Positions 1 to 31,504 of a stretch of 35,713 bases of DNA are shown in pieces (positions within the stretch are counted from its first letter, which is position 1; the number at the start of each line of letters is the position of its first letter). The position numbers were made by a program, and so were the translations under genes. Origin of the DNA: a virus; IMG/VR virus record IMGVR_UViG_3300032284_000935, positions 1 to 35,713 of that record. One strand, written 5' to 3'. The notes beneath the pieces were generated by a model, which made no database searches, was not told the DNA's origin, and worked only from the letters and a program-made list of their open reading frames with translations.

Positions 1-616
1 TAATAATCTTGGTTTTGGTACCAGCAGTAATAACAGGATAAACGGAAGTAAAGAAGTCGTATGCGATATTAGATGGAACGAAAGCAAACTCATCTAAGAA
101 CACGATGTTATAAGAACCAGAACGTGCAGCTGAACTAGATGTAGAAGATGCAATGATGACTGAACCGTTTTCTAATTCAATACGACCTTTGTTCCATTCA
201 ACAATACCTTGCTGTAACCAGATTGGTAAGTTTTCGTATGCAAGTTGGAGTTTACCAAGAATGTCACGAGCAGTCTGTCCTCTGTTAGCAAGGATAGCAA
301 CATTTTGTGAATCTTGGAATAGAACAGCCCAAAGAAGATAGGCAATCGATGATGTTGTTTTACCAACTTGACGAGGACATTTGACAATCGTAAAACGATT
401 ATCATGAAATGTACGAATCATGTCTTTCTGAAAGTCGTATGTATTAAATTGAGTTAGACCTTCATCCAATGTAATAATCTTAATGTATTTGGTAAAATAC
501 ACCGGGTCTTTGGCACATTTGATGTACTCATTGACTTGCTCTTGGGTGTATTCAATTTCTACACCAACTTTTTTTAAGAGCGGATTATCACGATAACTAT
601 CTTTTTCAACTGCCAT
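1..616 (-). CDS. 17: Terminase large subunit, gp17-like (N-terminal ATPase part; runs off left edge)
   Basis: This is the ATP-driven DNA packaging motor and nuclease that fills the prohead. Only the first 205 codons lie in the window. I translated them by hand because the reading frame is open at the left edge. A Walker A loop is visible at residues 80-88 (CPRQVGKTT, K86), and a Walker B segment at 171-176 (IVFLDE, D175 with the likely catalytic E176) is followed by FAFVP. Both are arranged as in the gp17 ATPase domain. T4 gp17 is about 610 residues, so roughly two thirds, including the C-terminal nuclease, is missing only because the window ends. The ATG overlaps the TAA of the upstream HAD gene by one base (TAATG), which suggests translational coupling. 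Family assignment is firm. Confidence 0.95.
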   Translation of the reverse strand, partial: MAVEKDSYRDNPLLKKVGVEIEYTQEQVNEYIKCAKDPVYFTKYIKIITLDEGLTQFNTYDFQKDMIRTFHDNRFTIVKCPRQVGKTTSSIAYLLWAVLFQDSQNVAILANRGQTARDILGKLQLAYENLPIWLQQGIVEWNKGRIELENGSVIIASSTSSSAARSGSYNIVFLDEFAFVPSNIAYDFFTSVYPVITAGTKTKII

Positions 617-1269
617 TATTTGTAGACTTTTGTTTTGATGTGAACTTTATTTGTTTCAGGGTCATGTAAAACATGGTGTGCATGTAACTCTACATGAGGG
701 TGGTCTTGTTTTAGACTTGCAAAATGGTTTAGATTGTGTTCCGAATCATCATACAAATGTACTTTGGTGTATCCATGTTGGTGAATCTGTTTACTGATTT
801 CTCTACGCTTACTATCACCTGTGCTTGTTGCTTCTTTATCGTTACCTGTACGTCTTACATGAACTTTACCTTCACCTTTACCGGCTGGAATTCCATGTTT
901 TTTTAATCCATTTAAGAATGCGTCTTTGTCATCTAAGTCTGAACGTGCTGTGACAATTTCTACTTTACCACCATTATGATGAATCTTTTTCAATTTTCGA
1001 ATCATGTGGTGAATTGGTTTTGCAGTCTGTTTGAATACTTTGCTAGAACGAAACTCGCTAAAATCATAGTGATGGTCTGGATGCAATTTGTGGTCATTGA
1101 ATTCTTGATTATTCAATGAGTGAATTGTTTTGCCGTGTTTGTCTTTAACATGAATTTTCAACTTAGAATGGTCGTGATGAAATAACACTTCGTCCATGTC
1201 AAATGCATGTAGTGTTTTTTCGTCTTTCTTTTGACGTTCTTCTGCTATGAATTGGTTAAATTTAATCAT
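616..1269 (-). CDS. HAD-superfamily phosphatase, His/Lys-rich, with a possible capsid-targeting N-terminus
   Basis: A 217-residue HAD-like hydrolase. Motif I is FDMDEVLF (D24 and D26), a motif II candidate is VTAR (T107), a motif III lysine may be K154, and motif IV is LYDDSEHN (D174-D175). The arrangement resembles phage HAD phosphatases and nucleotidases; the substrate cannot be read from sequence. Two things are odd. The protein has 29 histidines and many lysines, giving a strongly basic character. Its N-terminus, MIKFNQFIAE followed by E, resembles the short N-terminal capsid-targeting peptide of T4 internal head proteins, which ends in FIAE and is cut by the gp21 protease. The gene sits between the small and large terminase genes, overlapping gp16 by 8 bases and gp17 by 1. 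HAD membership is well supported; head packaging is inference. Confidence 0.8.
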   Translation of the reverse strand: MIKFNQFIAEERQKKDEKTLHAFDMDEVLFHHDHSKLKIHVKDKHGKTIHSLNNQEFNDHKLHPDHHYDFSEFRSSKVFKQTAKPIHHMIRKLKKIHHNGGKVEIVTARSDLDDKDAFLNGLKKHGIPAGKGEGKVHVRRTGNDKEATSTGDSKRREISKQIHQHGYTKVHLYDDSEHNLNHFASLKQDHPHVELHAHHVLHDPETNKVHIKTKVYK

Positions 1270-1684
1270 TCTTTGCTTTGATTAACTTGCTTAGTTCTGA
1301 TGTACTACCAACAAATATAGCATTATTTATCTTTGTGCTAGTATCTTCTTTTTTCTTTCCATCCATCTCACGCATTTGTTTTTGAACTGCAAGTAATTCT
1401 TTATTTGCATCAACTACGTTTTTAAGTAGTGTACCATAAACTTCAAACGCACGAGGGTGTTGACCTGCTTTAGCAATCTGTAACATTTCTTCCATTGCAT
1501 CTTTGCCTTGGTCAATTAATTCTTGCAGATTATCTCTAGTCTGGTCATATGCATCAATCAAATCTGTTTTTAAATCAGGTTCATCCACTATGGTTGATTT
1601 GACCATAGGCAGATTAGGTGTTTCAACAGGTTCAACTGTTGTCACCTCAAATATTTTTTCCATGTTTTTATCAAATGTACTCAT
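1262..1684 (-). CDS. 16: Terminase small subunit, gp16-like
   Basis: This is the small subunit of the packaging enzyme, which recognises concatemeric DNA and regulates the gp17 motor. The 140-residue product is close to the usual family length (T4 gp16 is 164). Its central part (about residues 40-110) is predicted helical and rich in Leu, Glu and Lys (for example LQELIDQGKDAMEEMLQIAK, then YGTLLKNVVDANKELLAVQK), as expected for the oligomerising coiled-coil core of T4-like small terminases. A candidate Shine-Dalgarno, AGGA, overlaps the end of gp15, 10 bases upstream of the gp16 start. The identification rests on this helical pattern plus position between gp15 and gp17; I see no separate DNA-binding motif. 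Confidence 0.85.
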   Translation of the reverse strand: MSTFDKNMEKIFEVTTVEPVETPNLPMVKSTIVDEPDLKTDLIDAYDQTRDNLQELIDQGKDAMEEMLQIAKAGQHPRAFEVYGTLLKNVVDANKELLAVQKQMREMDGKKKEDTSTKINNAIFVGSTSELSKLIKAKND

Positions 1685-1693
1685 GACTTATAT

Positions 1694-2743
1694 TTATCCT
1701 AACGGTCTTGGTCCTAAAATTGTTGAACTATTGGATGATATAACTGTGCTGTTTGCTTCTTGTATCGATACATTATATGTGAATGATTGTACATTGGCAT
1801 TTGCAGTATATGGAGTTATAGTGATAGTATCTAATTTTGTTGGTGTTTGATTTATATTATAAGTATAAGATAAAAATAATCTGTTTGTATTTGAATCGGC
1901 GCCAACAATTGGTGAATTAATTAAGAAATTTCCACTAGTGTTTGTAAGTATCAATTGATTTGTGTTACTATTCCAACTACGAACTCTGCCTTGCGATGAT
2001 GATAGTGCTAATGATGGACCTTGATACACTATTTCATTTTGCATATAGTTTGTTGTGCCAGAACCAACCTTAACTGTTAATTGTGCATTACCTAAAGAGT
2101 TGTCTTCTAGAATATTTGTAATAACAGTTTTAACAATACTTGTTGCGTTATTATAAGGACCATATAAAAACGCTTTTGCTGTGAAATTGAGTTCCCAAAT
2201 GATTGAACGCACCTTGGTGCTCATGTCACCTTCGTATGTTGTTTCGTGTGAAACATTATTCAATACAATTGGTACTTCTTTGACTACTCCCATCTCAGGA
2301 ATTAAATTCAACTTCATTGTATAATCTGGCGTGAAGTATGGTAAAATTCTTTCAATAATTTGTGTACCATCTTCAACATTACGAACATATATGAACAACG
2401 AAAAATCAAAATCATATGGAACAGGATTGTATTGTGATGTCAATCCACCATTTGCATATGCAAAGTTTTTTTGATTTGTATTTTGTTTTCTCGATGCATC
2501 GTACTTCATGCCAGTTATTTCAAATGACATAGCAGGTAATGTAATCTGAACTTTTTTATCTAAGTTTGGATCACCTTGTAATCTTGCAACATAATTTTCT
2601 TTGCCAGCGTAGGCAATAGGCACAAGAAATCTTTCATTCTCTGAGCCATCTGTATTGTATCTTGCAATTTGGATTTGATTGAATACATTACCAAACCCAA
2701 TTACAAGTTTACGAATTATGCCATTGTACTGTATTGTTGCCAT
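1694..2743 (-). CDS. 15: Tail sheath stabiliser / tail completion protein, gp15-like, with C-terminal insertion
   Basis: T4 gp15 caps the finished tail tube and sheath and joins the tail to the neck. Residues 1-215 carry the gp15 core: the start IIRKLVIGFGNVFNQIQIAR, then YDFDFSLFIYVRNVEDGTQIIERILPYF and the late-core IIWELNFTAKAFLYGP. The protein is 349 residues, against 272 in T4. The excess lies after residue 220 and is a Thr/Ser/Asn-rich beta region. It includes a module at 233-292 (NEIVYQGPSLA ... SPIVGA) that closely matches one in gp8 of this window. The ATG overlaps the gp14 stop by one base (TAATG), and gp16 follows after 9 bases. Core assignment is confident; the role of the extra C-terminal domain is unknown. 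Confidence 0.92.
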   Translation of the reverse strand: MATIQYNGIIRKLVIGFGNVFNQIQIARYNTDGSENERFLVPIAYAGKENYVARLQGDPNLDKKVQITLPAMSFEITGMKYDASRKQNTNQKNFAYANGGLTSQYNPVPYDFDFSLFIYVRNVEDGTQIIERILPYFTPDYTMKLNLIPEMGVVKEVPIVLNNVSHETTYEGDMSTKVRSIIWELNFTAKAFLYGPYNNATSIVKTVITNILEDNSLGNAQLTVKVGSGTTNYMQNEIVYQGPSLALSSSQGRVRSWNSNTNQLILTNTSGNFLINSPIVGADSNTNRLFLSYTYNINQTPTKLDTITITPYTANANVQSFTYNVSIQEANSTVISSNSSTILGPRPLG

Positions 2744-3870
2744 TAAATGCTTCCAAACGGATTGACTTCACCAAAATTGATAACAGAGTTTGCTTCATTC
2801 TGAATAATTTTGTTATCGTATACTTCACGATATTGAATATTAGAAATTTCATCATAATTTTTAACGTAATATGATGCACCGCTTGTTGAACCAACAATAG
2901 GTGTTGTTGAACCAAATTCTCCAGAAATATTTATGACCTCAAGTAATCCAGTTGTTGGTGTCCATGACTTAACAATTGCAGATGATGCGATTTGTGTGAC
3001 TGTTTCACCAACAACATATGCACCAAAACCACCAGGAACAGGTGCGCTAAATGATGTAACTGTTTGTGAACCACTTACAGTATTACTCAAGGCTAATGTA
3101 TAATTAAATCCAAGTTGACTTAATGATGTGAATGTTGAATATACTGTATTACTACCATATACAAAACTGAACGAATCGCCTGTACTTAATGTGGTCAAGT
3201 CATTAATCAATGTAGAATTTTGAGTATTGATTGTTAATGTATTTCCATTTGCAACTGCTGACGACCAAACGCTTGATGTAAATGTTTGTTTCAATCTCAT
3301 ATCCATATTCAACTCTAATGTGTATGCATCTTCAGAAACAATATCGATATCTGCAACTCCAGTTTGTACAATTTCTTGTGAGTATTTGAATTTTTCTAAT
3401 TGCAGTTCGTAAAAGTATGGTGACTTTCTACCAAGCACAAAGAAATCTTTGTTACCTTGAACAAATTTAATCTCCATTAATTCGCCTTTGCCCGATGCAC
3501 CACTAAATGGTATATACACCAAGTCACCTTCTTTTGGTCTTGCATAAACGTCTTGTGGTAACCATTCTTCAAAAGAACGCTTAGACATCATTAAAGAAAC
3601 TGTGTTGTGAATTTCTAAACCAAACTTAGAAAAGAATTCTTGTTCACCAATATAGCCTTCTGAGTTAGACATATAAAATTCTAACGGATATGCTTGTGTG
3701 AATTTTTTAAGTGGATCATCACCAAATAATAGATTACGAGCAACGCTATTATCCATTGGAATATAATAGCCGTCAAAACCATATTGCCTGATAGCCTCAA
3801 CCATCAGGTCTTCTATTAATCTTTGTTCTGATTTGTTATTGTAGAAATCAAAATAATGATTTGTTGGCAT
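2743..3870 (-). CDS. 14: Neck protein gp14-like, with a large internal insertion
   Basis: This is a head-completion (neck) protein that, with gp13, seals the portal and receives the tail. Residues 1-193 match the gp14 pattern: YFDFYNNKSEQRLIEDLMVEAIRQYG, then IYGE-like positions around FFSKFGLEIHNTV, and the EGDLVYIPF and DFFVLGRKSPYFYELQLEKFKY stretches. The C-terminus ends IINFGEVNPFGSI-like (actual VINFGEVNPFGSI), as in T4-like gp14 proteins. Between them, residues about 194-340 are an insertion of beta-rich Ser/Thr/Asn sequence. T4 gp14 is 256 residues and this is 375, so the insertion accounts for the excess. It contains a module (284-337: VGETVTQIASSA ... TPIVGSTSGA) shared with gp15, gp8 and gp13. 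No clear Shine-Dalgarno precedes the ATG, which lies one base after the gp13 stop, so reinitiation is likely. Confidence 0.92.
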   Translation of the reverse strand: MPTNHYFDFYNNKSEQRLIEDLMVEAIRQYGFDGYYIPMDNSVARNLLFGDDPLKKFTQAYPLEFYMSNSEGYIGEQEFFSKFGLEIHNTVSLMMSKRSFEEWLPQDVYARPKEGDLVYIPFSGASGKGELMEIKFVQGNKDFFVLGRKSPYFYELQLEKFKYSQEIVQTGVADIDIVSEDAYTLELNMDMRLKQTFTSSVWSSAVANGNTLTINTQNSTLINDLTTLSTGDSFSFVYGSNTVYSTFTSLSQLGFNYTLALSNTVSGSQTVTSFSAPVPGGFGAYVVGETVTQIASSAIVKSWTPTTGLLEVINISGEFGSTTPIVGSTSGASYYVKNYDEISNIQYREVYDNKIIQNEANSVINFGEVNPFGSI

Positions 3871-4909: not shown

Positions 4910-7900
4910 TTATGCTTGTGCTTCATTCCATGAATATCTGGCTTGAATTGAACGAGCCGCAGTATCAATATTCTGTGCAACAAATGTTAATACGTCAGGT
5001 CCATCAGGATAGATACCACTACCACCAGTTGTTGCACCACCACCCAAGATACTATGACCAAGAGCAAGTAATTGCGATAAGTCTTGTTGTGTTGTACTAC
5101 CAGCACCAGGGTTAATGTTCAAGAAGAATCCAAAGACTGGTTCACCAGTGTTTGTGTTTGCTGTAGTACCCGTATTGTGGAAGATGTATTGTGATAGACT
5201 TGAGCCACCTACGTTTTGCCATACTTCTGCTGTGTTTGATGTTTTTGCATTCAAGTAGCAAGTAATCAAAAACGCACCGTTTGCATATACGTCTGCTTCA
5301 TATGGAATTTGTTGCATACGATTAATAACTTCACGAACACCTAATGTACCACCAGGAACACCACCTGATGCAGAAGGTGAAATACGGAAACTCATAACTG
5401 CTTGTGATGCACCAGCCGCAACAATAACGTTAGAAGTCATACCTTTTGTAAAGATGAATGATTTATCAACTGTGAAACCACCATCCATAATTGCAGAAGT
5501 ACCCCAATGGTTAATCTCTGGTGAGAATTGTGGAGCATGTAACTCAATAGATGTTTGTGCTGTTGCAGTATACAAGAATGTTTGTCCAGTATTTGCCATT
5601 GGTTGAACGTAAATTACAACACCTGTATTTGTTGCAAGAGCACCAGTATTCAATGTGATTGTGTTGGAACCAACTTGGTTAATACCTGCAATATAAGAAC
5701 CTGCGGCAACGTTTGCGGCACCAGCACCACCAAATACTAATTGTCCAACTTGCAGACCTGTTGTAACTTGTCCGGTTGTTAACTGAATTAAGTTATTACC
5801 TGCAATTGTGTTAACAACAATACCTGTTGTGTTACCAACTTGACCTCTTGTCAAACCAGTAAATGTGTTACCACTAATACCTGAGTAGTTTACAAATTCT
5901 GTGTTTGCATAGGAAAGACCACCAGTGTTTGCATTTTTCAACACTAATGTTCCGCTATTCGGGAAACCAAATGTATTTGCGGCATATATTAGTGTATCTG
6001 TTGAGTTCAATGCAGTACCTGGACCACTTTGACCACCTAACAAATATGTTGTTTTACTAAATGTGTTTGTTTCATAGCGACCAGGTAAGTTACCTGAACG
6101 CATATATGCAAGATAGTTAACGTTATTGTTAATAATTTTATGACAGTAAATTACGTTACCATCAGGACCACGAACACCAAAACGAATGAAACCAGCACCG
6201 TACCATGAGTAATCAATATACATCATTTGCATTTTTGTCAAATCAATGTTGTAACCTGAAGGACCAGTACCGTCTAATCGGTCAATGTTAAATTGGTTTT
6301 GAGTAATACGAGTATCAACTGTTTTACTGATTACTGCATTGTTTGATTGAATTGTACCACGATATGCTGGATTAATCATCATTTGTTGGTCAGACATAAT
6401 GTTGACTACACGATATGACATACCTTTGATGACAATGAAATCACCAGCAGTTACTTGTTTACTGAATGATGTTGGATACAATGTTGATGAGTTAACAATA
6501 TTAGAACCAGGAACAACAACTGCTTGTCCAGAAATTTGATATGTTGAACTACGTCTTACTGCCCATAGTGTTTGACCATCAAATTCGTAGAACAAACCAT
6601 TTTGTGAATCAAAGATACCAATACGATTTGTACCATTGTACCAAGAATATGCAGAACCTACATAGTTACCAGATGCAACTGTTGCTGTTGGTGCTGTGTT
6701 TGGTGTATATGTAAAACGATAAGGATCGATTACATTAAGAACGTTAAAAATACCATTGTAGCCTGTTTCGTTTGCACCGTTAATTGCAACACCCATTGTA
6801 GCAAAAATGTTATGTGGGTCTTTTGTTGTAACTTGTACTTGGTTGTTTGCAGAAGTATAGATTAGACCATCAAGGTTAAATTGTGATTTGAGTGTTGTAC
6901 CAGTAGACATTTGAATACCTTTACCAGATTGGTAACGGAAATATCTACGAGTTTGACGAATGTATTGATGATTATGACTTGATGCATTTGTAGAGAAACG
7001 AACACCACCGTCAAATGCACGATGTACTGCTGAACCTTGTGGTCTTACATATAATGATGCACTTGTTAATGTTACTGCACCTGATGTTGGTGTAAATGTA
7101 TCTGTGTAAAAGTTAAATGTATTTGGGCTTTGAATTGTTGAAACTAACCAAGAACCGTTTGCAGTAGATGCACCAGTTAATGCGATTTCGTTACCTACTG
7201 TTAATCCGTGTGGTGCCGCTGTAACAACTGTAACTGTGTTACCTGTTACGGAAGCAGAAGTCATTGCAATAGCGGCATTAGTAAATGTGTTACCGTAATA
7301 ACCTTGAGTTACACCAGTATTGAAAATAGAACCAGTTGCACCTGTGAAATAATATCTACCTGCATATGTGAATGTGTTTGCGCCTGCAACGTTATTGTTT
7401 GAGTTAACAATATACAAACCGTCTGCACCACCATAAATTGTATCTTGAATATAAACTGGAGTACCAACAGCAGGTAAAGGTGCACTTGTTACGTTTGCTG
7501 TGTATATTCTTGAACCTAAAACTGCTTGAACATCTGTTAAACCAAGGTTACCAGTTGCAGTCACATAATATGCATATGGTCTATTGTTCAACATTGCTAA
7601 CTGTTCCCACTTTGTGGTTTGAATTGAATACTCATAGTCAGTATCAATTAAACTTTGTGGAGTAGATGTGCGAAGTTTATTGATTGGATCCAACATCGTT
7701 TCTGCTGGAGTAAACTTTTCATCATATTCATCAACAACAATCTGCAACTTATCTGTATTTGCTAGTGCAGAAGTGTTGTAATTCAATACAACAGTTGTCG
7801 ATGTATTTGAACCGTCCGCTGATGTTGCAATTGAATATGCAGTTGATTTTAAGTTCGGATCAGAAAAGTTGTAAATCACGATGTTGTTTGTCACATCGGT

Positions 7901-8002
7901 AATCAAAACCAATCTTTCTTGCGGAATCGCACGAGGAATAGTAATCGTTTTTGATACTACATTGAACGAGTAGTATGTGTCTAATATCGCTTTTCTTGCC
8001 AT
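4910..8002 (-). CDS. Large conserved virion structural protein (1030 aa), T4-like phage of aquatic type
   Basis: A 1030-residue beta-rich protein in the place where T4 has gp9-gp12 and fibritin, just upstream of gp13. I do not recognise a T4 counterpart. The pattern is familiar from unnamed virion structural proteins of marine T4-like phages. The best-defined block runs from about 345 to 645: RRYFRYQSGKGIQMSTG, GDFIVIKGMSYRV, then MMYIDYSWYGAGFIRFGVRG, followed by NGNVIYCHKI-like sequence and MRSGNLPGRYE. The N-terminal 150 residues form a separate domain. Residues 158-450 hold three copies of a beta module with the pattern PHxL ... NG ... FxFY/FTY. Residues 660-810 are low-complexity Gly/Asn/Thr linker, and the C-terminal 200 residues look globular. 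A GGAGA ribosome site lies at 8007-8011. It could be a whisker, collar or fibre-attachment protein; this is inference from position only. Confidence 0.75.
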   Translation of the reverse strand: MARKAILDTYYSFNVVSKTITIPRAIPQERLVLITDVTNNIVIYNFSDPNLKSTAYSIATSADGSNTSTTVVLNYNTSALANTDKLQIVVDEYDEKFTPAETMLDPINKLRTSTPQSLIDTDYEYSIQTTKWEQLAMLNNRPYAYYVTATGNLGLTDVQAVLGSRIYTANVTSAPLPAVGTPVYIQDTIYGGADGLYIVNSNNNVAGANTFTYAGRYYFTGATGSIFNTGVTQGYYGNTFTNAAIAMTSASVTGNTVTVVTAAPHGLTVGNEIALTGASTANGSWLVSTIQSPNTFNFYTDTFTPTSGAVTLTSASLYVRPQGSAVHRAFDGGVRFSTNASSHNHQYIRQTRRYFRYQSGKGIQMSTGTTLKSQFNLDGLIYTSANNQVQVTTKDPHNIFATMGVAINGANETGYNGIFNVLNVIDPYRFTYTPNTAPTATVASGNYVGSAYSWYNGTNRIGIFDSQNGLFYEFDGQTLWAVRRSSTYQISGQAVVVPGSNIVNSSTLYPTSFSKQVTAGDFIVIKGMSYRVVNIMSDQQMMINPAYRGTIQSNNAVISKTVDTRITQNQFNIDRLDGTGPSGYNIDLTKMQMMYIDYSWYGAGFIRFGVRGPDGNVIYCHKIINNNVNYLAYMRSGNLPGRYETNTFSKTTYLLGGQSGPGTALNSTDTLIYAANTFGFPNSGTLVLKNANTGGLSYANTEFVNYSGISGNTFTGLTRGQVGNTTGIVVNTIAGNNLIQLTTGQVTTGLQVGQLVFGGAGAANVAAGSYIAGINQVGSNTITLNTGALATNTGVVIYVQPMANTGQTFLYTATAQTSIELHAPQFSPEINHWGTSAIMDGGFTVDKSFIFTKGMTSNVIVAAGASQAVMSFRISPSASGGVPGGTLGVREVINRMQQIPYEADVYANGAFLITCYLNAKTSNTAEVWQNVGGSSLSQYIFHNTGTTANTNTGEPVFGFFLNINPGAGSTTQQDLSQLLALGHSILGGGATTGGSGIYPDGPDVLTFVAQNIDTAARSIQARYSWNEAQA

Positions 8003-8041
8003 TTTATCTCCAGTATTTTTGGGATGTTATCGTTTATCTAT

Positions 8042-11000
8042 TTAGTAACCCATCATAATATCCAATGCCTTGATTGGATATTGTTTTTCGGTTGCAATTC
8101 TTGAATTTGGTACTTTTCTTGCATAAATTTGTGCTCCAACGGGTGGTGGAGATGCAAATTGTATATTTCCTTGGTAATTAACTGTATATCCTCTAGATGT
8201 ACCTAAAATGTAACTACCAAATAACGCACCATAGGTATTATATATGTTATATTGTAACCCAGGTTGCATTACACCATTAACCTCAATTTCCCAATCAAAT
8301 GCACTAGTTGTTGTTACTTGTACAGTATTGTATCTTGGTGTAAATACGTTTGTTCTTCCGTCTGCATAATTTGAGAAATCATCCAAATCATATACATCAG
8401 TTGAATAAACTGTATTGCTAGAACCAATTACAAGACCATTTGTGTAAACTGTGTTTGCATATACGTTTCCTGCAATTCCTACACCACCAGCAACTGTAAT
8501 TGCACCAGTTGTATTTGAAATTGATGCTGTTGTATTTGTATAGAAAATTTGAGATGCAATATTCTGAGCAGTAGTTACAATTGTCGATACTGCATTGTTG
8601 GCTAATGAGAATGCTAAATTAGCAAACGCATTTCCACTAGTCGCATTGGCTGTCACTACAAAATTGACATATGCATTAGTACTTGCCGCATTAGCAGTCA
8701 TCAATGAATATGTGTATGTATTCGTAGATGTCGCATTAGCAGTTACAATAGCATTGACATATGCATTAGTACTTGCCGCATTGGTTGTGATGTAACCATT
8801 TATTGTAGCCACATTGGCGCTCAATGCACTATTTGTGTATGCATTAGCATTTGTTGCATTTGCTGTCATTAACGAATACACATAAGTATTTGTACTTGCC
8901 GCATTGGCAGTAATGTATCCATTAATTGTTGCAACGTTAGCAGATATTTGTGCATTGATTACAGCATTGGCTGAAACTGCGTTTGCTGTTACGATAGCAT
9001 CGACATATGCATTGGTAGATGCCGCATTAGCAGTCATCAATGAATATGTGTAAGTGTTTGTTGATGATGCGTTAGCAGTAATATAACCATTGATTGTTGC
9101 AACGTTTGCACTTAATGCACTATTTGTGTATGCATTTGCACTTGTTGCATTTGCGGTCATCAATGAATAAACATATGTATTTGTACTTGCCGCATTTGCG
9201 GTAATGTATCCGTTGATTGTTGCAACGTTTGCGCTAATTTGAGAATTGATAACTGCATTAGCAGAAACCGCATTAGCAGTTACAACAAAATTTACATATG
9301 CATTGGTGCTTGCCGCATTAGCAGTCATCAACGAGTACACATATGTATTTGTACTTGCCGCATTTGCTGTTATCAATGAATTAGTATATGTGTTTGTACT
9401 TGCCGCATTAGCAGTCATCAGAGAATAAACGTATGTGTTTGTACTCTGTGCGTTTGCTGTGATGTATCCGTTAATTGTAGCAACGTTTGCACTTAGGATG
9501 CTGTTTGTATATGCGTTTGCATTAGTGGCATTAGAAGTGATGTTAAAGTTTGTGTACAGAATATTATTTGTATTGGCTGTACTGATAACACTATTTGTGC
9601 TTACGGCATTGGCAGTTACAACAGAATTCACATATGCATTAGTAGATACTGCATTGGATGCAATAGATGCATTGATTGTTGCAACGTTTGCCACCAGGTT
9701 AGTATCTGAATATGATTCCGCAATGGATAGGTTAGCAGTAATTCTACCATTGACATATGATGTCAAACTATTGTTGTTTGCAGTAATATTAGCATCAGTA
9801 TACAATTTCAAATTTGTATTGGCTGTGCTAATAACGCTATTTGTGGATACTGCATTTGCTGTAATGGATGCATTTAACGTATTGACGTTTGCCTGAATGT
9901 TTCCATCAGTATACAATTTCAAATTTGTATTTGCAGTTGATACAACACTATTTGTGCTAACAGCATTGGCAGTCACAATAGCATTTACATATGCATTGGT
10001 GCTTGCCGCATTAGCAGTCATCAACGAGTACACATATGTATTTGTACTTGTTGCATTAGCAGTCATCAACGCATATGTGTATGTGTTCGTACTTGCCGCA
10101 TTCTGTGTGATGTTGAAGTTTGTATACAGGATGTTGTTTGTATTTGCGGTTGATACAACGCTGTTTGTTGATACCGCATTTGCAGTCACAATAGCATTTA
10201 CATATGCATTAGTGGAAGCCGCATTCTGTGTGATGTTGAAGTTTGTATACAGAATGTTGTTTGTATTGGCTGTAGAAACAACACTATTTGTAGATACTGC
10301 ATTAGCAGTTACAGTTGCATTGACATATGCGTTTGTTGAAGCCGCATTAGCAGTCATCATTGCATACAAATCACTACCACCTAAGTTAGCAGAGATAGCC
10401 TCAATGTTTCCTACTTTCAAGATGTCATAGTTTGTGTTTACATCAAACGCAACTGTTGTTGATGGTTCAGTACTAACGTTACTGAATAGTTTCCACTTGT
10501 TATCATTGAAGTCACGAACGAAACCAGTATGTTGATAGTGTGAAAAATCTCCAGCATGTCCAGTACCAATAAAGTGTCCAACAAAACCAATATCTACGGC
10601 ATTACCAGTATTATTACCTGCAAGGTAAATCATAGGATCAGAAACAGATAGTGTATTTGAATTGTATGTGTTTGCTGAACCAGAAATATTCAAATTACCA
10701 GATAGTGTTAAATCTCCACCAACAATAATAGAACCTGTTGCATTCATTGACAATGAAGAACCGGTATTAATATTCAATGTACCAGTCATTGTATCACCAG
10801 CCTTAGCAACTCTTGTTGCAGTATTGACTGTGATATTATTATCTGTATATAATTTTAAGTTTGTGTTTGCGGTAGAAACAACACTATTTGTGGATACTGC
10901 ATTTGCTGTAATAGATGCGTTTAATGAAGCAACGTTTGCACTTAAAATATTATTTGTATATGCATTAGCATTTGTTGCATTCTGCGTAATGTTATAATTT

Positions 11001-12853
11001 GTATATAAAGTTAAATTTGTATTTGCAGTTGATACAACGCTGTTTGTACTGATTGCATTAGCAGTCATCAACGCTTCAATGAACGTATTTGTACTTATTG
11101 CATTTTGAAGAATGCTATAATTTGTGTACAAAATATTATTTGTGTTTGCTGTATCTGTGTATGATTCTGCTGTACCCAATGTTTGGTTAAAAAGAGTAAG
11201 AACATAACTACCCATTGACGTATTTGCGGCAATGACGTTTAGGTTTGCACCATTGGCTGCCGCTTGTGCAATATTTGCATTAGCAGTAATGTTGCTGTCT
11301 GTGTATGCTTTTAGACTTGTATTTGCATTGACGATTGCAGTATTTGTTCCAGTCAATCCAGCCTGCAAATTTGTTGCATTTGCTGTAATGTTTCTATCTG
11401 TATATAACTGTAAACTAGAGTTAGCAGAAACAATAGCAGAGTTTGTTCCGTTTAATCCTGCTTGTAAGTTGTTTACGTTCGCTTGGATATTTGCATCAGT
11501 ATACAACTTCAATGATGTGTTTGCGTTAACTATAGATGAGTTAGCCGCATTGATACCTATTTGTAAATTGTTTACGTTTGCAGTTACGACAGAATTCACC
11601 CATGCATTACTTGACAATGCATTTGCTGTAATGTAACTATTGAGTGTTGCAACATTAGATGCAATTGCAGTATTTGTATAAAGTAATGCTGTTGCTAAAT
11701 TTTGTGTAACTTGACCATTTACATATGCAATGACATTATTATTTGCATTAACAATTGCTGTGTTTGTACCATTTAATCCAGCCTGTAGGTTATTTACATT
11801 CGCTGTGATTTGACCATTCACATAACCAATAACATTATTATTTGCAGTTACGATGGCGGCATTTGCACCATTGATGCCTGCTTGTAAGTTTGTAGCATTA
11901 GCAGTAATATTGTAGTTTGTGTAGGCAATATTATTGTTGTTTGCTGTTACGATTGCAGTATTCGTGCCATTTAATCCTGCTTGTAAATTGTTTACGTTAG
12001 CAGTAATATTGTAGTTTGTATATGCAACAACATTATTATTAGCAGTAACTATTGCAGTATTGGTACCATTTAGTCCGGCTTGTAAATTGTTTACATTTGC
12101 TGTGACTTGAGTATTTGTATATTGTTGTGCTGTAATTAGGTTAGCATTAGCGGCATTGAATGCGGCTTGTGCTGTTGTATTTCCTACGTTAGCCTGTGCA
12201 TATGCAGAGTTGGCATAAGAACCCACAATACTAATGTTTGTATTTTGTATTGTGTTTATTGAGTTAACTGTGTTTGCTAAAGTATATGCAGAGTTAGCAT
12301 ATGAACCTGCAATGTTTACACTTGTGTTTTGATACGCATTAACAAGAACAATATTATTTGCAAGAGCATATGCACTATTGGCATAAGATTGTGCAAGATT
12401 AGCCGCAACATATGCAGAGTTGGCATAAGAAGCAGAAATTGTAATATTGTTTGCATCAATATTTGCGGCTAAGTTATATGCAGAATTAGCAATTAAAAAT
12501 GCAGAGTTTGTGTATGAAGCAACAATTGTAATATTTTGTGCATCTAAGTTTGCTTGTGCATATGCAGAGTTTGCGTATGAGCCAACAATAACAATATTAT
12601 TTGCGCCAGTGTTTGATAAATTTGATGCATATTGAGAATATGCAAGTGCAGAGTTTGCTGTGTTTGCAGAATACTGTGCATAAGTTAAGACCGAACCAAC
12701 GCTATTACTTGCAATATTTGCTGTTGCAAGTGCTGTGTTTGCTGTCTGAGAAATTGCATTAAGTTGTGCATTGACCGAAACAGAACCAATGAACTGTGTC
12801 GCTCCTTGTACAACTTGTTGATTTGTCGGATTAACTCTTACGTTAATTGTCAT
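8042..12853 (-). CDS. Giant repeat-rich tail fibre protein (1603 aa)
   Basis: A fibre-like protein built mostly of Ala/Asn/Thr/Ser repeats. Residues 1-250 contain SYANSAYxxAN units. Residues 254-525 hold seven 33-residue units beginning VNNLQAGLNG or a variant. Residues about 560-672 and 832-1412 are tandem 11- and 15-residue units that almost all end in AN, such as VATINGYITAN and AASTNTYVYSLMTAN. A compact domain at 686-830 starts with the phage-fibre motif GDTMTGTL and contains SDPMIYLAGNNTG and DFNDNKWKLF. The C-terminal 120 residues (from about 1481) form a beta domain with WEIEVNGVMQPGLQY and GYTVNYQGNIQFASPPPVGA. The unit lengths suggest a long trimeric right-handed coiled-coil shaft carrying two globular stations. 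The AAAGG ribosome site overlaps the stop of the upstream 116-residue gene. Fibre identity is strong; which fibre it forms in the virion is not readable. Confidence 0.85.
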   Translation of the reverse strand: MTINVRVNPTNQQVVQGATQFIGSVSVNAQLNAISQTANTALATANIASNSVGSVLTYAQYSANTANSALAYSQYASNLSNTGANNIVIVGSYANSAYAQANLDAQNITIVASYTNSAFLIANSAYNLAANIDANNITISASYANSAYVAANLAQSYANSAYALANNIVLVNAYQNTSVNIAGSYANSAYTLANTVNSINTIQNTNISIVGSYANSAYAQANVGNTTAQAAFNAANANLITAQQYTNTQVTANVNNLQAGLNGTNTAIVTANNNVVAYTNYNITANVNNLQAGLNGTNTAIVTANNNNIAYTNYNITANATNLQAGINGANAAIVTANNNVIGYVNGQITANVNNLQAGLNGTNTAIVNANNNVIAYVNGQVTQNLATALLYTNTAIASNVATLNSYITANALSSNAWVNSVVTANVNNLQIGINAANSSIVNANTSLKLYTDANIQANVNNLQAGLNGTNSAIVSANSSLQLYTDRNITANATNLQAGLTGTNTAIVNANTSLKAYTDSNITANANIAQAAANGANLNVIAANTSMGSYVLTLFNQTLGTAESYTDTANTNNILYTNYSILQNAISTNTFIEALMTANAISTNSVVSTANTNLTLYTNYNITQNATNANAYTNNILSANVASLNASITANAVSTNSVVSTANTNLKLYTDNNITVNTATRVAKAGDTMTGTLNINTGSSLSMNATGSIIVGGDLTLSGNLNISGSANTYNSNTLSVSDPMIYLAGNNTGNAVDIGFVGHFIGTGHAGDFSHYQHTGFVRDFNDNKWKLFSNVSTEPSTTVAFDVNTNYDILKVGNIEAISANLGGSDLYAMMTANAASTNAYVNATVTANAVSTNSVVSTANTNNILYTNFNITQNAASTNAYVNAIVTANAVSTNSVVSTANTNNILYTNFNITQNAASTNTYTYALMTANATSTNTYVYSLMTANAASTNAYVNAIVTANAVSTNSVVSTANTNLKLYTDGNIQANVNTLNASITANAVSTNSVISTANTNLKLYTDANITANNNSLTSYVNGRITANLSIAESYSDTNLVANVATINASIASNAVSTNAYVNSVVTANAVSTNSVISTANTNNILYTNFNITSNATNANAYTNSILSANVATINGYITANAQSTNTYVYSLMTANAASTNTYTNSLITANAASTNTYVYSLMTANAASTNAYVNFVVTANAVSANAVINSQISANVATINGYITANAASTNTYVYSLMTANATSANAYTNSALSANVATINGYITANASSTNTYTYSLMTANAASTNAYVDAIVTANAVSANAVINAQISANVATINGYITANAASTNTYVYSLMTANATNANAYTNSALSANVATINGYITTNAASTNAYVNAIVTANATSTNTYTYSLMTANAASTNAYVNFVVTANATSGNAFANLAFSLANNAVSTIVTTAQNIASQIFYTNTTASISNTTGAITVAGGVGIAGNVYANTVYTNGLVIGSSNTVYSTDVYDLDDFSNYADGRTNVFTPRYNTVQVTTTSAFDWEIEVNGVMQPGLQYNIYNTYGALFGSYILGTSRGYTVNYQGNIQFASPPPVGAQIYARKVPNSRIATEKQYPIKALDIMMGY
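8618..10360 (-). repeat. Tandem 11- and 15-codon coding repeats in the giant fibre gene
   Basis: Residues 832-1412 of the fibre consist of back-to-back units of 33 or 45 bases. Examples are VATINGYITAN (11), VNTLNASITAN (11), AASTNTYVYSLMTAN (15), AVSTNAYVNSVVTAN (15) and a 26-residue compound (15+11) beginning AVSTNSV. On the plus strand the DNA shows recurring words such as gccgcattagcagtcatca. Copies differ mainly at synonymous positions. A shorter stretch of the same family lies at about 10838-11176, on the other side of the GDTMTG domain. Confidence 0.9.
11279..12094 (-). repeat. Seven 99-base (33-codon) repeats in the giant fibre gene
   Basis: Residues 254-385 hold four and residues 427-525 hold three copies of a 33-residue unit with the pattern (V/A)xNLQAGLNGTNTAIV..AN......Y(T/V)...ITAN. 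The two sets are separated by a 15+11+15 residue spacer. Each unit divides into three 11-residue blocks. Confidence 0.88.
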
Positions 12854-28822: not shown

Positions 28823-31504
28823 TTAAGCCCAAGTACCAACACTTGTTGGGGCTGTATTTGCACCAATTGGTGTTATGTACATACTACTGAATGCTTGTGT
28901 ATATGCAGATGTAGTAGGTGCAGGTGAGAATGAAATCTGTGGATGTAAAGTACCACCTGTTAGTACATCTATATATCCCCAAATATCTAAAGACATAAAT
29001 GATGTTCCGCCAGCCATTGCGGCTGTTACAACAACAGGAGCACTAACATTTGACGTAATATAATTCGTCATAATAGTTGGAGCAGTAGGTGTAACTTGTG
29101 ATGTTGAACCTACACTATCTACTTGATATCTGTGTGATACTACGTTTGCTGTACCAGAAAAGTCAAACGCAATTGTTGGTGCGTTAGGACCGTTACCAAC
29201 TTTTTGAATAACTGCTTTAATGTTATAGCGATAACGCTTACCGCCTGTTACTGTAACACCAACACCCAATAGACTTTGTGCTACTGTATTTGCGCCTAAT
29301 GTGTAATTGTTACCAAGAACATAAGTTTGCTCTGATGGTACAATACCTCTTTGTGTACCTATTGGTGTTTGATAGAAATTAGTTCCATCATATTCTTTTG
29401 CACCAGTAACCGCTGTTGTTGTCAATACACCAGATTTGTATGTCAATGCGGGTGCCGCTGTATTACCTGCGGCAAGTACAACTGTGTTTCCAAATGTTGT
29501 GTTGTTTGAAGTAACTACAACAATACTTGGTACTAAAACATTTGAACCAATTGGTACTGCACCAAAATCAATTGATGTGCCTTTATTTGTATCTGTGAAG
29601 TTTTCAAGTGCAATCATTTGCATTCTTGCAGTACTACCAGCAATTGCAAATGCTGTATTACCAAAATTGTTTGCATATCCATTGCCACTAAATCGAGCCA
29701 TTATATCGCCTGATTGTAATGCTGTTGGATTGTTTGCAGTACCTCTTGATGCTCTTCCGTTAAACAATGCATATACACCAGTACCTGCGGCATCATTAAT
29801 TATCTTAGAACTTACGCCATCTTTACCTGTAATCTGTAACATTGTTCCATCAGAAATTGGTACAACATATGCATTATTTGCCGCACCAATAATACCGACT
29901 GCAAATTGATTTGTGCTGAAGTTTGAGTTGTATACTTTTAATGTTCCTGGATTATTTGCAACGGAATTGTTTAAATTTACATAATTGAAAGTTGCAACAG
30001 TATTTGCTGTATTTGATGTTAAGTTGCCTGTGATTGTAACGTTAGCAGAAGCAATTGTGCCGTTTGCATAAATTGTTGTATTGCCTACAATAAATGCGGC
30101 AGTATTATTCACTTGTACTGCTGAGTTTGCTACTGTAATGACTGCGGAGTTACCAGTAATAGTATCAAGAATATTGATTGAGTTGCCTGAAAGATATAAT
30201 GTACCCCAACGATTTGTTGCGCTACCTAAATTATATGTGTTTGAACCATTAGGTACTAAATTGCTAGTAACTGTATTTGCAATTGTTAAAGAATTCAATA
30301 CAACTGTTGAAGTATTCTGTACTGCTGTGTTTGTCAATGCATATGCAGAGTTAGCATAAGATTGTGCAAGAGCAATGTTTGTATTCTGTAATGTATTAAC
30401 ACCTACAGTAAATGTATTGATTGTATTTGCAAAAGCATATGCGGAGTTTGCGTATGAACCAACAATAGTAATATTTGTATTTTGAACTAAATCTACACCA
30501 GCACCTACGTTAGCAAGAGCATATCCTGAGTTAGCATAAGATTGTGCTAGGTTGGCGGCTACATACGCTGAGTTTGCATAACTACCTGCATATGTTGCAG
30601 TTGATAATCCTGAGTTTGCTACAATGAATGCGCCGTTTGCATAGTTGGAAATAATTGTGATGTTTGTATTTTGAACTGAATCTACACCAGCACTTACGTT
30701 AGCAAGAGCATATCCGGAGTTAGCATATGACTGTGCTAAGTTAGCCGCAACATATGCGCTATTTGCATATGATGCAATGATAACAATATTGTTTGCATCT
30801 GTATTTGCTAATGTATAAGCGGCATTTGCTTGTGCAAATCCACTATTTGCATATGAATATGGTCCTGCGGCAGTTAATTGTTTTGTTCCATCAGGGAAAA
30901 TATATGCAACTGATACAATCACATTTCCTGTAACATTCGAATCAACATATGAGTAGTATGCATTAGATGTATATTTTGCTACAACGTTTTGTGATGAACC
31001 ACCACCAACTGTAATTTTTAAACTTGTGTTTGTTGTTGTAGTACCAATAATCAAATTACCACCAAGTAATCCTGATGCATTTCCGCCTTGTACATACAAA
31101 TATCCATCTAATGGACTAATAGCCGTACCAATGTTATTGAATTCTTGACCTGGTTGATATGCTGGGTTTGCGTAACCTAAATCTAAAAAGTATGCTGAAT
31201 CTGTACCTGTACCTGCGTTTGCTGTAATAACATGGTCTGCTGTACCACCACCATCTAAGTTGATGAAGTTGGTCTGAACATATGAATTACCAGTCAACGA
31301 GAATTGTGCAATTGTGTTTGGTAAAAGAATATTATTATTACCAACAACAAGAGTGTTATTTGAAAACAATCCTGCGGCAAGTGTTGTTGCTGTCATTCTA
31401 CCAGTAACACCAGTTGGTACGTCAACCACAGCAAACAATGTATTCGCTGTATTTGAATTAATGACTGATACTGGTGGTAGTTGCGATATTTTTACTGTTG
31501 GCAT
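28823..31504 (-). CDS. Repeat-containing tail fibre protein between gp7 and gp8 (893 aa)
   Basis: It begins MPTVKISQLPPVSVINSNTA followed by LFAVVDVPTGVTGRM, a start typical of aquatic T4-like fibre proteins. Residues about 212-400 contain SYANSAYxxAN-type repeats (SYANSAYVAANLAQ, SYANSGYALAN), nearly the same as those at the N-terminus of the 1603-residue fibre. Then come short beta-strand repeats and, at about 400-470, a segment LVPNGSNTYNLGSATNRWGT of the 'N-x-Y-x-L-G-x-x-x-x-R-W' fibre type. The C-terminal 190 residues (RYRYNIKAVIQKVGNGPNAP, IAFDFSGTAN, MSLDIWGYIDV) look like a compact beta-sandwich tip, possibly TNF-like. T4 has no fibre gene at this place. The ribosome site is AAGGT over the gp7 stop codon. 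The fibre class is clear; which fibre it builds is not. Confidence 0.82.
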   Translation of the reverse strand: MPTVKISQLPPVSVINSNTANTLFAVVDVPTGVTGRMTATTLAAGLFSNNTLVVGNNNILLPNTIAQFSLTGNSYVQTNFINLDGGGTADHVITANAGTGTDSAYFLDLGYANPAYQPGQEFNNIGTAISPLDGYLYVQGGNASGLLGGNLIIGTTTTNTSLKITVGGGSSQNVVAKYTSNAYYSYVDSNVTGNVIVSVAYIFPDGTKQLTAAGPYSYANSGFAQANAAYTLANTDANNIVIIASYANSAYVAANLAQSYANSGYALANVSAGVDSVQNTNITIISNYANGAFIVANSGLSTATYAGSYANSAYVAANLAQSYANSGYALANVGAGVDLVQNTNITIVGSYANSAYAFANTINTFTVGVNTLQNTNIALAQSYANSAYALTNTAVQNTSTVVLNSLTIANTVTSNLVPNGSNTYNLGSATNRWGTLYLSGNSINILDTITGNSAVITVANSAVQVNNTAAFIVGNTTIYANGTIASANVTITGNLTSNTANTVATFNYVNLNNSVANNPGTLKVYNSNFSTNQFAVGIIGAANNAYVVPISDGTMLQITGKDGVSSKIINDAAGTGVYALFNGRASRGTANNPTALQSGDIMARFSGNGYANNFGNTAFAIAGSTARMQMIALENFTDTNKGTSIDFGAVPIGSNVLVPSIVVVTSNNTTFGNTVVLAAGNTAAPALTYKSGVLTTTAVTGAKEYDGTNFYQTPIGTQRGIVPSEQTYVLGNNYTLGANTVAQSLLGVGVTVTGGKRYRYNIKAVIQKVGNGPNAPTIAFDFSGTANVVSHRYQVDSVGSTSQVTPTAPTIMTNYITSNVSAPVVVTAAMAGGTSFMSLDIWGYIDVLTGGTLHPQISFSPAPTTSAYTQAFSSMYITPIGANTAPTSVGTWA
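30310..30870 (-). repeat. SYANSAY-type coding repeats in the 893-residue fibre
   Basis: About eight copies of an 11-codon unit of the form (S/N)YAN(S/G)(A/G)(Y/F)xxAN, separated by spacers such as VSAGVDSVQNTNITI. The same unit and the 14-codon variant SYANSAYVAANLAQ occur at about 12200-12660 in the giant fibre. Confidence 0.85.

Follow-up and report, generated by a model that had tools for sequence, protein, structure and literature searches.

A HAD-family phosphatase of an uncultured T4-like phage is likely to travel as internal cargo of the phage head, directed there by a short N-terminal leader of the kind that targets the internal proteins (IPs) of T4. The gene was found in a 35,713-base IMG/VR record (the window, meaning the whole stretch analysed), a genome fragment that ends before the prohead-gene region. 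Judged by its gp15, gp14-like and gp13-like neighbours, the source is an uncultured T4-like phage. The N-terminus of the HAD protein reads MIKFNQFIAEERQKKDEKTLHAFDMDEV, and no second leader-bearing gene was found within the window. Features of the locus are collected in Table 1.

Table 1. Features of the HAD locus and of its neighbours in the window.
Feature	Position	Strand	Basis
HAD-family phosphatase gene, 217 aa, with capsid-targeting-like N-terminal leader	616..1269	(-)	ORF; PF03767; phrog_415; AlphaFold2
Leader peptide MIKFNQFIAE, residues 1-10	1240..1269	(-)	predicted prohead-protease cut after E10; homologue conservation
HAD motif I, D24-M-D26	1192..1200	(-)	invariant, 37 homologues
HAD motif II, T107	949..951	(-)	invariant, 37 homologues
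HAD motif III candidate, K154	808..810	(-)	invariant, 37 homologues
HAD motif IV, D174-D175	745..750	(-)	invariant, 37 homologues
gp16, terminase small subunit	1262..1684	(-)	PF11053 E 4.5e-10; phrog_445 E 1e-32
gp17, terminase large subunit, cut by window end	2..616	(-)	PF03237; phrog_5989 E 7e-53
gp15, tail sheath stabiliser	1694..2743	(-)	PF16724 E 1.4e-69
gp14-like neck / head closure protein	2743..3870	(-)	phrog_460 E 2.6e-69

Elsewhere in the window (8042-12853 and 28823-31504), long proteins carry repeated Asn/Ala/Thr-rich segments (NANAANTA, SYANSAYAxAN) and are probably tail fibres.

The resemblance to T4 was first noticed in a first-pass annotation, which matched the start of the protein to the T4 IPs at M1, at the aromatic residue in position 4 and at F-I-A-E in positions 7-10. 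Both sides of this comparison hold: the open reading frame begins MIKFNQFIAEE, and in the T4 record (NC_000866) IPII and IPIII begin MKTYQEFIAE-A and IPI begins MKTFKEF. Aligning homologues to see whether the FIAE peptide persists, as had also been suggested, revealed clear conservation. Among 42 non-redundant homologues, 39 have F at position 4 and 38 have E at position 10; position 7 is F, L or Y in 39, and position 8 is I, L, V or R in 39. Positions 2, 3, 5, 6 and 9 are variable, as is the linker that follows, which also differs in length. The IMG/VR profile scan retained the best 80 of 438 HAD relatives, so the set is biased toward close relatives. The four conserved positions are the same four that govern T4 IPIII, where mutagenesis assigned residues 4 and 7 to targeting and residues 8 and 10 to cleavage (PMC9026906). 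The window leader carries T4-type residues at all of them, F4 and F7 for targeting and I8 and E10 for processing. In IPIII, aspartate at position 10 permits targeting and not cleavage (PMC9026906); one HAD homologue, in contig G003, has D at this position. A DNA-level cause of the conservation was considered and rejected, since codons 4, 7, 8 and 10 vary synonymously; the constraint therefore acts on the protein.

Behind the leader lies what is, from its motifs and modelled fold, very likely a phosphatase. Pfam places the protein in HAD subfamily IIIB (PF03767, 29.6 bits against a cut-off of 27) and PHROGs in phrog_415, a family named polynucleotide kinase (E 3e-10), which also matches 37/37 homologues (E 3e-10 to 3e-13). 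The catalytic set recognised at first pass (D24/D26, T107, D174-D175) is intact and, together with K154, invariant in an alignment of 37 diverse homologues, giving HAD motifs I-IV (DxD, T, K, DD) on a modelled HAD fold. The AlphaFold2 model built with the homologue alignment has a mean pLDDT of 87.5 and sets the first ~12 residues apart as a separate helix of low confidence; a run without the alignment reached pLDDT 42, and that model was discarded. In Foldseek searches the model matched class B and C acid phosphatases in the PDB (AphA, TM 0.50; P4 nucleotidase) and, among viral models, phage HADs, a PNKP phosphatase-domain protein and a HAD inside a 915-aa protein named cytidyltransferase-like. 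A sequence-profile search of the PDB with the HAD returned no relatives. A tblastn search of isolate phages with the window protein gave no match at E 1e-3, and one with a second HAD query gave only two distant copies from uncultured huge phages. The T4 pseT gene product is also matched by phrog_415, and a direct hhalign comparison of the HAD with PseT aligned 13 columns, covering motif I only. A nucleotide or nucleic-acid substrate is plausible. The earlier description of the protein as strongly basic stands in direction (29 His, 39 Lys plus Arg against 31 Asp plus Glu, pI 9.4) but is generous, as much of the count is histidine.

The matches to acid phosphatase and nucleotidase families are also what one would see if the protein were an ordinary intracellular HAD nucleotidase of late infection, with a leader that is vestigial or there by chance, and leaderless relatives on bacterial chromosomes fit that picture as well. 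F4 and E10, however, are retained in at least 90% of HAD homologues and are thereby as conserved as the catalytic residues, while the linker beside them varies in length; moreover, a phage-like copy at 37% identity (L161) retains the leader as MLSFKDYMNEQ. We therefore regard an ordinary nucleotidase as highly improbable. The first-pass annotation had named homologues that keep the HAD core and lack the peptide as evidence against capsid targeting. Such proteins do occur, solely among distant homologues: the leader was looked for and absent in bacterial chromosomal relatives, and two huge-phage HAD copies lack it, as do some from other phages. They are to be expected if the tag is transferable. 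In Flavobacteriia (L162, L163, L168) and Acidobacteria (L164, L166), the chromosomal HAD domain ends or directly follows a ~440-aa protein that starts with a QSGISDPRYPL-like motif.

The leader recurs on proteins that have nothing else in common with the HAD. Nine related contigs of 48-163 kb (G003-G011) were scanned for a strict form of the motif, which starts 29/1420 ORFs as against 18/6247 internal methionines (7-fold, p=6e-11). Leaders cluster around the HAD: 20 of 78 adjacent genes have one, compared with 19 of the 584 remaining ORFs (p=3e-10). Overall, leaders precede at least six unrelated body families. A leader-tagged operon recurs, in the order HAD, a variable gene drawn from three families, DUF6267, and a cytidylyltransferase/NMNAT (CYT). 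F4 and E10 are invariant in the DUF6267 leader and F4 in that of the GADSY family. The leader is a conserved, separable and transferable tag, and in T4-like phages of fresh and sea water it is found on many proteins with no other relationship to one another. The cytidylyltransferases of PA5oct and Cr30, which lie outside this phage group, have no leader. In the isolate Mosig EXVC030M, closely related by its terminase, neither the HAD nor the leader genes are present.

Several of the tagged bodies resemble enzymes. DUF6267 has an invariant K62 (within KYDGxP in most members), P370-x-G372 and K388, and its KYDGxP, PEG and late lysine resemble ligase motifs I (KxDG), IV (EG) and V (K). One family of the variable slot has an invariant D-F ... 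G-E-x-K, a PD-(D/E)xK-like nuclease signature. The CYT protein has a CTP_transf_like domain, joined in long versions by a P-loop. Sequence-profile searches of the PDB gave no match for DUF6267 and no relatives for the GADSY family. The leader proteins of at least 100 aa in the nine contigs are also unusual in composition, with a median histidine content of 7.3% versus 1.9%, K/R of 15.9% versus 11.8% and Cys of 0 versus 0.9% (p<1e-10 for each), points that are not fully independent because leader proteins share families. The histidine enrichment persists when the HADs are removed (p=1e-12). This His/Lys/Arg-rich, Cys-poor character suggests that they are adapted to the interior of a head packed with DNA or to transit through the tail; the cyanophage leader proteins show no such histidine excess.

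Leader-like starts extend into the head-gene region. One check suggested at first pass was whether the phage's own prohead core proteins begin with the same peptide, and in relatives a small protein encoded between the portal and protease genes has a leader-like start, MKLFSNFRQQLDEA in G003 and MKSLKDFIA in G005 and G006. In these three contigs gp21-like and gp22-like genes stand in the expected order, as judged by synteny and resemblance to the annotated S-SM1, gp21 being assigned by position and this resemblance. Their gp23 has an L-x-E just upstream of a conserved PTNVTG stretch, a site consistent with a gp21-type cut. The PTNVTG that follows the predicted gp23 cut is found again, as GPTNVTG, in a basic leader-bearing protein of just 57 aa, and the G003 HAD has a similar APTNVVGG near its C-terminus (G003:C1:53227-54051 and G004:C1:131652-131837, besides gp23 of G003, G005 and G006). 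It looks as if this were a shared capsid-binding motif.

The step from proteins tagged like cargo to proteins that are cargo comes from the proteomes of other phages. A scoring matrix was built solely from 40 HAD leaders and applied to their proteins. The virion of cyanophage S-CREM2 contains 52 proteins by mass spectrometry (PMC10665884 Table 3). When its 219 annotated proteins were scored, four stood out at 8.1-16.0, the next reaching 2.2. These four, the SAM hydrolase gp6, the kinase gp14, gp136 and the cytidylyltransferase gp154, are all virion proteins (4/4, p=0.003, or 3.5e-4 among non-structural proteins, a result that rests on four proteins). In S-SCSM1, whose own record supplied the list of virion proteins, the matrix selects two candidates: the NMNAT gp91 is in the virion, and gp30, with a strong leader, is undetected (1/2). 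For both phages combined, 5/6 picks are in the virion versus 95/495 other proteins (p=0.0015). In S-SM1, the cytidylyltransferase T4-GC190, detected in virions (PMC3037559), begins MKKFSAFLNEA. The virion CYT/NMNATs of S-SM1, S-SCSM1 and S-CREM2 are homologues of the CYT encoded in the HAD operon and begin with the same leader. The cyanophages with proteomes lack the HAD; in S-CREM2 and S-SM1 we could find no phrog_415 HAD. The S-CREM2 paper (PMC10665884) makes no mention of a targeting leader, and none of the papers we consulted describes a targeting peptide for these T4-like phages.

Could the leader instead be some other N-terminal address or interaction helix, for a chaperone, a membrane or a replication site, with virion detection reflecting the abundance of late proteins? 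The motif is short, virion proteomes contain contaminants, and S-SCSM1 gp30 escaped detection. Taken by itself, a loose seven-residue core of the motif failed to tell the virion proteins of S-CREM2 from its other proteins (5/13 matches, p=0.2); the separation is seen only with the fuller leader. Yet the leader matches the mutationally mapped capsid targeting sequence (CTS) of T4, the four top picks in S-CREM2 are virion proteins with unrelated enzymes among them, and a leader-like start marks the protein of the portal-protease interval in related phages. Another address thus seems unlikely. Packaging has other routes too: the NMNAT of S-CBWM1, a phage outside this family, is reported in virions by way of a citation in PMC9602691 and has no leader, so that, if the cited report holds, it is packaged differently. 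The capsid targeting first proposed from the T4 resemblance gains support from a leader conserved at the T4 residues, its presence on unrelated neighbours, the leader-like start in the portal-protease interval of related phages, and a matrix that predicts virion proteins in S-CREM2 (4/4) and S-SCSM1 (1/2).

Two proteins in these phages deserve separate mention. S-SCSM1 gp30 (L169, record 44215-44535; 106 aa) starts MKTFKQFMSESV and lies in the terS-terL interval, flanked on both sides by virion proteins; on the strength of its leader it is predicted to be a head cargo protein that mass spectrometry did not detect. S-CREM2 gp12 (L148, record 7704-10313), virion-detected and annotated as Cas9-like, has a leader-like LRFASFMAEAA at residues ~17-27, preceded by an N-terminal extension, and its start may have been annotated too far upstream.

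Gene position raises the question of whether the HAD serves DNA packaging, for example by removing 3' phosphates from the ends being packaged, with a leader that binds the prohead or motor and not the head interior. In the window the HAD overlaps both terminase genes, sharing a few bases with gp16, and its stop codon overlaps the gp17 ATG (TAATG). The exact position between gp16 and gp17 is shared by seven further loci in the non-redundant set of 42. This arrangement is nonetheless a minority one: 13/42 relatives follow gp16 and 29/42 do not, many of the latter lying in the DUF6267/CYT cargo operon. In cyanophages the gp16-gp17 gap is also known as a hot spot for insertions (PMC3037559), and the leader occurs on virion proteins with no packaging link. 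The first-pass suggestion of an enzyme acting on DNA ends during packaging thus finds little favour, and we consider a motor role very unlikely.

We return to head cargo. The phage probably carries the HAD in its head and, following the precedent of the T4 IPs, which are injected into the host (PMC12373910), may inject it; for the window protein we infer packaging, cleavage, delivery and substrate alike. Residues 1-10 would act as a capsid targeting sequence, with F4 and F7 attaching to the prohead core so that the HAD would be incorporated into the prohead. Cleavage behind E10 by a gp21-type prohead protease would follow, and the enzyme would remain in the head together with the DNA. At infection it would accompany the genome into the cell and be active there ahead of phage gene expression. 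In relatives its companions would be the ligase-like DUF6267, the NMNAT/cytidylyltransferase (some with a P-loop) and the variable, sometimes nuclease-like protein. Because the HAD travels with ligase-like, NMNAT and nuclease-like leader proteins, the substrates of the cargo are probably nucleotides or nucleic-acid ends, and its task could be to repair damage inflicted by the host or to process nucleotides as infection starts. More tentatively, and with somewhat more doubt than belief, we propose a modular head cargo, directed by a tag, in many uncultured T4-like phages: a nucleic-acid/NAD repair and counter-defence kit injected before gene expression. It would comprise the HAD, a swappable slot (one version PD-(D/E)xK-like), the ligase-like DUF6267 and the NMNAT/P-loop enzyme, all under one shared leader.

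The leader makes it straightforward to predict which hypothetical proteins are carried in the heads of abundant aquatic T4-like phages, and it would account for the repeated appearance of NMNAT-like enzymes in T4-like cyanophage virions. If this is confirmed, what looked like a peculiarity of T4, confined to three anti-restriction proteins, would become a general means of supplying enzymes at the very onset of infection, with named cargo families worth assaying.

Known systems share parts of this design. Class B and C acid phosphatases are exported proteins with the same HAD core and motifs. The phrog_415 HADs, a family that includes the T4 PseT region, likewise have the core and motifs in common with the window protein, which lacks the kinase domain and aligns directly with PseT over motif I only. 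T4 Alt, MuF fusions and polyvalent proteins are head-carried enzymes delivered at infection (PMC9503650), as proposed for the HAD, and they rely on fusion to structural domains or on Alt-type propeptides in place of a ten-residue leader. The closest parallel is with T4 IPI, IPII and IPIII, which share with the HAD a ten-residue N-terminal leader with an aromatic residue at position 4, F7, I or L at position 8 and E10. As in the HAD-bearing phages, the T4 leader sits on unrelated bodies encoded in flexible gene clusters. In T4 an alanine follows E10, whereas in the HAD leaders, for which the cut site is predicted only, mostly acidic or polar residues follow and alanine is unusual. Finally, the T4 IPs are small proteins, Ip1-3 blocking GmrSD restriction enzymes (PMC12373910), whereas the putative cargo described here consists of conserved enzyme families.
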